Positions 6,725 through 29,911 of a DNA stretch of 64,000 nucleotides are shown here, piece after piece. The stretch covers positions 310,001-374,000 of the forward strand of contig JALHQA010000002.1 in NCBI GenBank assembly GCA_022842205.1. Reading direction: 5' to 3'. Origin of the DNA: Hyphomicrobiales bacterium (GTDB lineage Bacteria; Pseudomonadota; Alphaproteobacteria; Rhizobiales; Methylopilaceae). Positions within the stretch are counted from its first letter, which is position 1, and each line of letters starts with the position of its first letter. Under the pieces are notes generated by a model. That model worked only from the letters and a program-made list of their open reading frames with translations, searched no databases and was not told the origin of the DNA. Made by a program: the position numbers and the translations under genes.

Positions 6725-9700
6725 GACTGAATATCTCGGCGGCCTCCATCAAGAGGCCCATTCCCGGCATCGTCCTGTTTGTCGTGCTGACGATCCTCGG
6801 CCTCTTCGCGTTCGCCGAGCTTCCCATCACGCGCTTTCCGAACATCGACATTCCGCTCGTTCAGGTTTCGGTGAGCGAGTCCGGTGCCGCTCCATCCGAG
6901 CTTGAATCGCAGGTGACGAAGCGCATCGAGGACTCGGTCGCGAACCTTGTCGGCGTGAAACATGTGATGTCGACCGTGTCGGACGGCCTCTCCTCGACCG
7001 TCATCGAATTCCAGCTCGAGACCGACACAGACCGCGCCGTCAACGACGTCAAGGACGCGATCGCCAAGATACGCGCGGAGCTGCCGCGCACGATCGAGGA
7101 GCCGGTCGTCAACCGCATCGACGTCGAGGGACAGTCCATTGTTTCCTTCGCCGCCCAGTCGCCCGGCATGACGCTGGAGCAACTGTCCTGGCATGTCGAC
7201 GACGTTGTCATCCGGCAATTGCAGGCGCTGAAAGGCGTCGGCCGCGTGCAGCGCATCGGCGGCGTCGACCGAGAAATCCGCGTCGAGCTCGATCCCGACC
7301 GGCTGATGGCGCTTGGCGTGACAGCCGCCGATGTCAGCCGGCAGGTGCGCGCCATCAACACCGACCTCGCCGGCGGGCGCGGCCAGATCGGCGGCCAGGA
7401 ACAGACGATCCGCACGCTCGCCAATGCGCGGACGCTGGAAAACCTTCGCGACATGAAGATCTCGCTGTCGAACGGCCGCGAGGTGCGCCTGTCGGAACTC
7501 GGCGAGGTGAACGACACGGCGGAGGAGCCGCGTTCCTTCGCGCGTCTCGACGGCCAGCCGGTCGTTTCCTTCAACGTGTTTCGCACCAAGGGTGCAAGCG
7601 ATGTCGCCGTCGCTGACGAGGTCGATGCAAAACTCAAGGAAATGCAGGCGGCAAATCCAAACGTAACCTTCTCGAAAATCGACGACTCGGTCAGCTACAC
7701 CGAGGGCAACTACGAAAGCGCAATGCACACGCTGCTCGAAGGCGCGGTGCTGGCAATTCTCGTTGTCTTCCTGTTTTTGCGGGACTGGCGCGCCACGCTC
7801 ATCGCCGCCGTCGCGCTGCCGCTTTCCATCATTCCCGCCTTCTTCCTGATGGACCTGATGGGCTTCTCGCTCAATCTCGTCAGCCTTCTCGCATTAACGC
7901 TGGTGACCGGCATTCTGGTCGACGACGCCATCGTCGAGATCGAAAACATCGTGCGCCATATGCGCATGGGCAAATCGCCCTATCGCGCGGCGATGGAAGC
8001 CGCGGACGAGATCGGTCTCGCCGTCATCGCCATCACGTTCACGATCGTCGCGGTGTTCGCACCGGTATCGTTCATGGGCGGTGTCGCGGGCCAGTATTTC
8101 TCGCAGTTCGGCCTGACCGTCGCCGCCGCCGTCCTGATCTCTCTCTTCGTGGCCCGCCTCATCACACCGCTGATGGCCGCGTATTTCCTGCGTCCGCACA
8201 AGCATGTCGAGGAAAAGGACGGACGCATCATGCGGGCCTATGTCCGCGCGCTGGACGTATCGCTGAAGCACCGCTGGCTGACGCTGATTGTCGGCATCGG
8301 AATTTTCGCAGCATCGCTCGTCGCCAATTCCTTCATGCCGACCGGCTTCATGCCCACGGAGGACTCCTCGCGTATTGTCGTGCAGGCAGAACTGCCGCCC
8401 GGCGCAAGGCTCGAAGATACGCGGGTCGTGTCCGACAAGCTCACTGCGCGACTGAAAGAGTTGCCTGAAGTCGAGACCGTGTTCGTTATGGGCGGCACGA
8501 CCCCGACCGGCACGCTGGAACTGCGCAAGGCCGCGCTGATCCTCCGCCTGACACCGAAGAACCAGCGCGACCGCTCCCAGAAGGAAGTCGAGGCGCATGT
8601 CGCCAGGATCGTGTCCGAAGTGCCGGACGTGCGCTCGTGGTACGTCAACGAACGCGGCGAGCGAGAGCTGTCCATCACGCTGACCGGTCCCGACCACGTG
8701 GCGCTGAACGAAGCCGCCGCATCGCTCGAAAACGAGATGCGGCGCGTGCCGCAATTCCTGAACGTGGCACCCTCTACCGGTCTGTCGCGACCCGAACTCG
8801 TGGTAAGCCCACGCCTCGACCGCGCCGCCGATCTCGGCATCACGACGGACGCCATCTCGGAAACGATCCGTGTCGCGACCATCGGCGATGTCGACGCCAA
8901 TCTCGCCAAGCTCAACACCGGCGAGCGGATGATCCCGATCCGCGTGCAGTTGCGCGAAGATGCGCGCACCGATGCAGGCCTTCTTAAATCCTTGTCCGTA
9001 CCGGCCGGTAACGGCCGCTCGGTGCCTCTCTCGGCGGTGGCCGATGTCGGCTTCGGCGAAGGCCCCTCTTCCATCGACCGTTACGACCGCCAGCGCCGCG
9101 TTGTGCTCGGCGCCGACCTGACGGGCGGCATGCAGCTCGGCGACGCGGTTAACGCCGTGCTGGAACTGCCGACCGCCAAGGCGCTGCCGCAGGGCGTGCG
9201 GATCGTGCAAAGCGCCGACGCAGAGATCATGAACGAGGTGTTCGAAGGTTTCGCCAAGGCCATGGGCGCCGGGATCATGATGGTGCTTGGCGTTCTGGTG
9301 CTGCTGTTTGGCGGCGTTTTCCAGCCGATCACCATTCTGGCGTCGCTGCCGCTGTCCATCGGCGGTGTCATCATTGCGCTGATGCTGACTGGCAACGCGA
9401 TCTCGATGCCGGTCGTCATCGGCATCCTGATGCTGATGGGCGTCGTGACAAAGAACGCAATCATGCTGGTCGATTTCGCGGTGGAGGCCGAATACAAGGG
9501 CGTGCCGCGCGACGAGGCCATCATCGACGCCGGACGCAAGCGCGCGCGGCCCATTGTCATGACAACGATCGCGATGATCGCGGGCATGATCCCCTCCGCG
9601 CTCGGCATCGGCCAGGGGGGCGAGTTCCGCGCGCCAATGGCGATCGCGGTGATCGGCGGCCTTGCAGCATCGACCGTGCTGTCGCTGATGTTCGTGCCCA

Positions 9701-27829: not shown

Positions 27830-28753
27830 TCACTTCCGGGCCACCACAGCGATGCCGAACAGGACGCCGCCGAACACCGCCGCGATGCCAAGCGCCTCGG
27901 GCCAGGCCGGCCAGCGCTGGTCCCAGATGAAGCCGTAGATCACGCCGAAGGCCGGCTCGCCGACATAGAGCTGGCCGGACAGGACCAGCGGCAGGCGCTT
28001 CGTGGCGATGATCCAGCACCAGGTCGCGAGCCAGCCGCCCAGAATGCCGGTCAGCGCCGCCCAGAACAGAAGATTCTCCGCCTCCGGCCAACTGAAGCCG
28101 ATCTCGGGGATATGGACGAGGCCGAACGGCCAGGCGGCAAACGCGAACAACACGATGCCAAGTCCTGCTCCGATGCCCTGAAGCCCGGTCCAGCCCATCG
28201 AGTTGATGTCCGGCATGTGATCGACGGCGCGCTCGTTGAGGATGCCATACGCGACCCAGGAGGCCACCGAACACAAGGCCGCCAGGACCCCGAACAGGAG
28301 TTCGCTGCGTGCCTGCGGCGTCGGCGCGCCGGCCAGGGCAAATCCGTTGACGAGCAGGAGGCCGGCCGCGATGAGGGCCAGCGGCACCGCGAGCGGGCGC
28401 CATTTCACATGACCGCCGAGATTGCCGGAAACGGCCAGAAAGATCGGCAGCAGTCCGCATACCAGCGCCGCGATCTGCGGCCCGGCATGGGCAACGGCAA
28501 TGACGAGAAAGCCGTAGAAAATGCTGTAGCCGAGAAAGCCGAGCCAGATGCCGTTGAGCGCTATCGCCGGTGTTAGCCCGCGAATGCGGCTGGCCGGAAT
28601 GAGAGCGAACACGGCAAGCGATGTCGCCGCGAACATCAGATAGCGCATCACCGCGAGATCGACGCCGGAATATGGCGCGACCCCGAGAGGCGCGATGAAG
28701 ATGAGCCCCCACAGGGCTCCGGTCAGAAGACCGGCGAGAATTCCGATGAGCAT
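27830..28753 (-). CDS. EamA/DMT family transporter
   Basis: Ten hydrophobic segments; LLTGALWGLIFIAPLGVAPYSGVDLAVMRYLMFA. Confidence 0.82.
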   Translation of the reverse strand: MLIGILAGLLTGALWGLIFIAPLGVAPYSGVDLAVMRYLMFAATSLAVFALIPASRIRGLTPAIALNGIWLGFLGYSIFYGFLVIAVAHAGPQIAALVCGLLPIFLAVSGNLGGHVKWRPLAVPLALIAAGLLLVNGFALAGAPTPQARSELLFGVLAALCSVASWVAYGILNERAVDHMPDINSMGWTGLQGIGAGLGIVLFAFAAWPFGLVHIPEIGFSWPEAENLLFWAALTGILGGWLATWCWIIATKRLPLVLSGQLYVGEPAFGVIYGFIWDQRWPAWPEALGIAAVFGGVLFGIAVVARK

Positions 28754-28789: not shown

Positions 28790-29845
28790 TCAGTCGCTGT
28801 CCTGAACGATGACACCGTACCAGCCGAGGCCGCGATAGGTTTCATAGCCCGGCGTCGCATGAAACGCCACGAGCGCGCCTTCCGGCTCCTGATAATAGCC
28901 GCTCTGCCGGCCCTCAAGATTGAGCGCAAGGCGCTCGGACAGCATGCCCTCGCCGTCCGAAGCCGCAATCACCCGGTGGGATGCATCCACCAGCATGACC
29001 CTCGTGCGGGATTTTTCTTCCTTCGACAGCCGCACGCCTTCGACGATGATGCGGGCCTGCGGCGACCAGTCGAAATGCACCGCCAATACGCCAAGCGGCT
29101 TGCCGTGGGCCCGGCCGCCCTCGCAGACCTTGGCCGCATAGGTCGCGGTCATCGAGCTGTTCAGCACATGCTGCCGGGATATGTCGGCGACGCAATAGTC
29201 GTCGCCGCTGTGCAGCGCGATCGCATCGCGGAACCAGGATTCGCGCGACACATCGGCACCGGCGGCCTGATAGACGCCCGGACGGCCGTTGGCGAGCACG
29301 CGGCCGTTCATGTCGCATAGCCAGATATCGAGATAGACCGTATAGGCGCCGAGTATGACGGCGAGCCGCCCGCTCGCATAGCTCCGCGCCGCCTCGTCCG
29401 GAGACTGAGCGCAGGATACGAAAGCGGAATCCGTCGCCCACCAGCGCACGTCGCAGGTACGTTCGTACAGATTGCGGTCGATGATCTCGATGGCATTGAG
29501 CGCGAGATCCGCCAAGCGCGCGCCGCGCGCCTGCAGAGCCATGCTTTCGATCATGCGTTCGAGCTGAGAAACCTGGGCAACGACTTCCTCTTCGAGAGCT
29601 GTCGCCACCTGCTCCACCTCGCCGCCAACGCCGCGAACCTCCTGCGCGACGATGGAAAACCCCGCGCCGGCATCGCCGGCCCGCGCGGACTCGATCATCG
29701 CATTCAGGGCCAGCATGCGCATGCGGCCGGTGATCTTCTGGATTTCCTGGACCTTCTGCTTGGTCTGGGTATTGACGCGCCGCGTCAGCCCGGCCACATC
29801 GGCCAGCGACACCGGTTCCGAGCCGGGATCGTCCGTCGCAAGCAT
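28790..29845 (-). CDS. soluble chemoreceptor-like protein: short MCP signalling hairpin plus C-terminal Cache-like sensor region
   Basis: IQKITGRMRMLALNAMIESARAGDAGAGFSIVAQEVRGVGGEVEQVA hairpin tip; later WFRDAIALHSGDDYCVADISRQHVLNSSMTATYAAKV...GVLAVHFDW Cache-like; no obvious TM segment. Confidence 0.75.
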   Translation of the reverse strand: MLATDDPGSEPVSLADVAGLTRRVNTQTKQKVQEIQKITGRMRMLALNAMIESARAGDAGAGFSIVAQEVRGVGGEVEQVATALEEEVVAQVSQLERMIESMALQARGARLADLALNAIEIIDRNLYERTCDVRWWATDSAFVSCAQSPDEAARSYASGRLAVILGAYTVYLDIWLCDMNGRVLANGRPGVYQAAGADVSRESWFRDAIALHSGDDYCVADISRQHVLNSSMTATYAAKVCEGGRAHGKPLGVLAVHFDWSPQARIIVEGVRLSKEEKSRTRVMLVDASHRVIAASDGEGMLSERLALNLEGRQSGYYQEPEGALVAFHATPGYETYRGLGWYGVIVQDSD

Positions 29846-29911
29846 CTACCCGCACTCCCCCGCACGCGGCTGTCCACGCGTCAGATTGCGGAATTTTGGT
29901 AAATTTTCGCT

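Follow-up and report, generated by a model that had tools for sequence, protein, structure and literature searches.

The signalling hairpin of the E. coli receptors has 18 heptads in each arm, and the smallest described class of MCPs has 12. Known cytoplasmic MCPs are devoid of a transmembrane segment; among the soluble receptors, those of the TlpD/CZB type combine a full-length signalling hairpin with a C-terminal zinc-binding CZB domain. The signalling part thus lies ahead of the sensor, providing a precedent for the reversed order of the protein described here, which differs from the TlpD type in its very short hairpin and in a dCache domain apparently coupled through its N-terminal helix. 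The canonical dCache MCPs, such as PctA, Tlp3 and Mlp24, share with this protein the dCache fold and the MCP tip sequence; however, here the order of the two parts is reversed, the protein is cytosolic, and transmembrane segments, HAMP and methylation region are all missing. Cache families have been described as principally extracellular, and in ordinary receptors the extracellular Cache domain signals via its C-terminal helix and TM2, the C-terminal transmembrane helix being its only output (Upadhyay et al. 2016, PMC4822843). In two strains of Methylobacterium, MtpA, also a cytosolic MCP without transmembrane segment, acts in taxis, the signal associated with it in M. aquaticum 22A being formaldehyde, which implies that soluble receptors can signal in this group; as far as a comparison by description goes, an MCP domain alone has been reported for MtpA (PMC10613068, PMC12202990). 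Actinobacteria possess stand-alone intracellular dCache_1AM proteins that are paired with a transcription factor, where the dCache is likewise repurposed for the cytosol, but without an MCP hairpin (PMC10104139). There are thus precedents for soluble MCPs, for sensors placed at the C-terminus of a receptor and, in one case, for an intracellular dCache; what appears to be new, as our searches of the open-licence literature returned no description of this architecture, is a minimal tip driven from behind by a cytosolic dCache.

The coding sequence (28790..29845, minus strand), delimited by reading of the open reading frame and by its orthologues, lies in a stretch of 64,000 nucleotides, hereafter the window, and produces a soluble protein of 351 amino acids. 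Identity is 69–75% within the genus and 55–59% in the next genus. Translation starts at the ATG at 29845, preceded at a distance of 9 nt by a Shine-Dalgarno-like GGGGAG (29855..29860, minus strand), read from the sequence and presumably acting as such; an in-frame TAG (29846..29848, minus strand) abuts the start codon, so that an N-terminal extension with a hidden signal peptide or transmembrane segment is ruled out. Within the protein, neither a signal peptide nor a convincing transmembrane segment was found; hydropathy over 19 residues peaks at 1.53, at residue 161, which belongs to the Cache fold. A scan for promoters and terminators gave nothing above chance on the strand of the gene.

The N-terminal part carries a match to MCPsignal (PF00015) at residues 25–103, corresponding to profile positions 29–110 of 172, with a score of 56.4 bits that exceeds the Pfam cut-off of 34.6 and an E-value of 4.2e-15, far beyond chance. 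From this match, PDB tip matches, reading of the arms and the structural model, a minimal signalling hairpin was delimited at residues about 14–108 (29522..29806, minus strand). In these ~95 residues the two arms measure about 44 and 47 residues, i.e., ~6–7 heptads each and about 14 heptads in total, against at least 24 in canonical MCPs. Sequence comparison places the hairpin tip at residues 45–69, LALNAMIESARAGDAGAGFSIVAQE (29639..29713, minus strand), which by homology would be the part docking on CheA/CheW. Two PDB entries, 3ur1 and 4jpb, which we take to be CheA/CheW complexes, contain receptor-tip chains that residues 28–97 match in sequence with E about 1e-9; these chains, of 85 and 90 residues, are close in length to the whole signalling part of the protein. 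A full-length hairpin with methylation helices was not found, the PF00015 match covering only the profile segment given above, nor was a HAMP domain detected by Pfam; the CheR-binding tail is absent as well, the C-terminus reading LGWYGVIVQDSD. Residues 78–79 were considered as a methylation-type pair and rejected, lying too close to the tip, at about 20 residues from it.

The dCache domain spans residues about 110–348 (28802..29518, minus strand), as delimited by Pfam, alignment and model, and opens with a continuous N-terminal helix. The match to dCache_1 (PF02743) at residues 117–316 is under the cut-off (22.7 bits versus 45, E 8.3e-5), and other relatives score 28–35 bits. A Foldseek search with the modelled Cache part matched DctB, PctA and Mlp24 at probability 1.00 and also CtaA, and the ligand-binding domains of DctB and PctA were among the top PDB structure matches of the model, which confirms, at the level of a predicted structure, a double-Cache fold with a long N-terminal helix for the C-terminal part. 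These results agree with the initial annotation, made from the DNA alone, which had described a soluble protein without obvious transmembrane segment or signal peptide, a recognisable MCP tip within residues ~25–85, a short (~100-residue) signalling region at the N-terminus and a remainder resembling a Cache sensor; its proposal of a cytoplasmic receptor of reversed architecture with a minimal hairpin is supported. The features that it had named as contrary to this proposal, a transmembrane segment or a full-length MCP domain, were looked for and neither was found.

The Cache part is best conserved at DRNLYERTCDVRWWATD (residues 123–139), and among 66 family members W204, F205, Y236, F258, D259, W260 and the end TPGYETYxGLGW are near-invariant. 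The universal amino-acid-sensing dCache_1 domains carry a motif of the RxWY type; here W204 and F205 are kept, while position 202 carries E in 35 of the 66 members but R in only 4, so the motif is not present. Sensing of redox state or metals via cysteines was rejected, since C145 and C177 are not conserved and C131 occurs in 86% only; redox sensing suggested by a neighbouring glutathione reductase gene was also discarded, this neighbour being limited to close relatives. The general expectation is that the dCache ligand would be an intracellular metabolite, and no ligand is proposed here with confidence.

The AlphaFold monomer, built on an alignment of 27 members, has a mean pLDDT of 88, with most of the Cache part above 90. 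In the models, the N-terminal helix of the Cache runs unbroken into the C-arm of the hairpin; the hairpin turn itself is absent, residues 14–127 being drawn as a single straight helix, and the same holds for residues 18–131 of a relative (L116). If both models were right on this point, the N-terminal part would be a straight coiled coil and the protein a rod-like dimer. Both are, however, monomers from shallow alignments and hence not decisive on the turn, and three observations argue against the rod: glycines 57, 60 and 62 are near-invariant at the position of the canonical turn; in three relatives of one genus (L016, L017 and L019), two residues are missing exactly there (AGQ--TGF); and the region is homologous to receptor-tip chains solved as hairpins. 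A straight coiled coil is thus very improbable, and the straight helix is read from these sequence features as an artefact of monomer prediction, although it remains the chief structural doubt about the hairpin. In members of the genus with the deletion, R55, equivalent to R388 of Tsr, is His.

Of 18 genomes from its taxonomic family, 12 carry a full-length relative, and at least 583 relatives were found in public genomes; the best 80 of these belong mostly to Bradyrhizobium, the others to Chelatococcus, Rhodoplanes, Asticcacaulis, Nisaea, Pseudokordiimonas and further genera. A class-wide alphaproteobacterial sample contained 37 carriers in 385 genomes (E below 1e-25). The family reaches Betaproteobacteria, and copies are located on plasmids of Burkholderia, Caballeronia, Paraburkholderia and also Methylobacterium, the genus of MtpA; four of these plasmid copies are annotated as "methyl-accepting chemotaxis protein", a label that RefSeq gives to some members. 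The rarity implied by the initial annotation is thus contradicted; Alphaproteobacteria commonly carry such proteins, some of them annotated, which the same annotation had held to be contrary to its proposal, but the existing labels are silent on the architecture. The order hairpin followed by dCache is constant in all members that were read, and lengths in the non-redundant set are 307–374 amino acids, as called. One copy on a Rhizobium plasmid (L121, around 8000–8882) appears to be frameshifted within the hairpin tip, where no gene is annotated, and is probably a pseudogene, while at three other loci (L162, L188 and L112) a second copy lies close by, as a tandem duplicate.

Conservation of the tip was counted on the 66 members, which are non-redundant at 80%. 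N48, E52, R55, G57, G60, G62, F63, V66, A67 and E69 are found in 94–100% of them; in our own mapping, the Tsr equivalents are N381, E385, R388, G390, G393, G395, F396, V399, A400 and E402. The R/K at the position of Tsr 394 is changed to A in 14 of the 66 members, and the sequence stands clearly apart from the six full MCPs that this genome encodes. The AxQTN segment on the N-side of canonical tips, including the position of Tsr F373, is replaced in most members. The changes at Tsr 394 and in AxQTN count against a sensor of the chemoreceptor type. This segment makes the trimer contact, and its alteration, with the other core residues kept, would be expected if the protein were a modulator or decoy of the array, whose tip occupies positions of CheA/CheW or of the receptor trimers and whose loaded dCache lowers array activity or cooperativity. 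The short arms, insufficient for methylation and perhaps also for stable trimers of dimers, point in the same direction, as does the presence of other MCPs in every carrier checked. Yet nine divergent members that fall outside the large clade containing the window protein keep a canonical tip, as judged on a tree with a midpoint root only, and small fragments of Tsr are reported to signal even when they lack the methylation segments (Ames et al. 1996, as listed in PMC3570549). On balance, a modulator or decoy is an unlikely explanation, and direct signalling is preferred.

A gap of 36 bp separates the coding sequence from a downstream gene on its strand (27830..28753, minus strand), which codes for an EamA-family transporter recognised by Pfam and adjoins the gene at another locus (L039) too; co-transcription of the two genes is possible. 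The EamA, glutathione reductase and DAHP-synthase neighbours are retained in close relatives only, and no partner is conserved in the neighbourhoods across the family, the largest cluster of neighbours being a short-chain dehydrogenase family that comes mostly from the Bradyrhizobium locus. At 4 of 55 diverse loci (L166, L169, L185 and L186) a gene for an Amt-like ammonium transporter, identified by eye from the sequence, is present within a few genes. On two Methylobacterium plasmids (L120 and L123) the gene is found near GGDEF and EAL genes, together with several MCPs in L120, suggesting plasmid signalling islands. An orphan gene of this kind, with GGDEF/EAL genes nearby on plasmids, could also code for a regulator outside chemotaxis, in which the hairpin is reused as a module for dimerization or protein binding, an alternative already considered in the initial annotation.

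The distribution of the chemotaxis machinery, on the other hand, disfavours such a regulator. CheA is present in 37 of the 37 alphaproteobacterial carriers as compared with 169 of the 385 sampled genomes of the class (44%); the hypergeometric value of 5e-15 ignores shared ancestry and is to be read as a strong association, not as an exact probability. CheW-domain proteins were found in all 69 carriers checked, each of which has at least two MCPsignal matches. Thus CheA or CheW accompanies the gene in every carrier examined. The genome of the window has one CheA (contig C4) and six full-length MCPs, all on other contigs than the window, and among the matches listed two CheW-domain proteins are also on C4; the lack of che genes in the window, pointed out in the initial annotation, fits this arrangement. 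Two carriers (G325 and G401) have just 2 and 4 MCP matches in all and represent simple systems for the study of a role in the array.

Proteins of 862–880 amino acids with two related Cache domains were also identified, all coded on minus strands (L200:829-3468, L194:226-2865, L195:1083-3716 and L199:2409-4994); by Pfam, three of the four have a C-terminal CheW and none an MCP match, and no che genes were seen among the neighbours of the two Cache-CheW genes checked. Their Cache domains are 27–34% identical to the one described here and are likewise tied to an array-docking module, but the C-terminal CheW replaces the N-terminal tip, two Cache domains are present instead of one, and the protein is about 880 amino acids long. 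That related Cache domains are joined to array-docking modules of two kinds speaks for an input to the array and, together with the CheA distribution and the conserved tip residues, makes a role outside chemotaxis highly unlikely.

The reading that we favour, and consider likely, is that of a soluble sensor of the chemoreceptor type, whose tip docks on CheA/CheW and is driven via the N-terminal helix of the dCache; the family, widespread, apparently undescribed and always accompanied by the chemotaxis machinery, probably relays an intracellular signal into that machinery. The N-terminal ~95 residues would correspond to the membrane-distal tip of an MCP, docked on CheA/CheW in an ordinary array, while the cytosolic dCache would bind a small intracellular molecule or sense a state. 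Binding would move or twist the N-terminal helix of the dCache at the dimer interface; since nothing follows the Cache at its C-terminal end, this helix is the sole covalent route for output, and its movement would pass into the C-arm of the hairpin and change the activity of CheA. With methylation helices, HAMP and CheR tail absent, the protein should be incapable of self-adaptation and would act as a cytosolic input of fixed gain beside the normal receptors. More tentatively, it may belong to a widespread class of cytosolic dCache proteins that provide the array with an adaptation-free input from metabolism, either through an N-terminal mini tip or through a fused CheW.

If signalling is true, the protein shows how little of a chemoreceptor suffices for the control of CheA, that the cytosol is a place where a dCache can function, pushing through its N-terminal helix, and that arrays accept inputs incapable of adaptation by methylation. 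Being small and soluble, it makes the structure of a full-length receptor and its reconstitution practical. As Bradyrhizobium and other soil and plant bacteria commonly have the protein, it may represent a general metabolic input to taxis.
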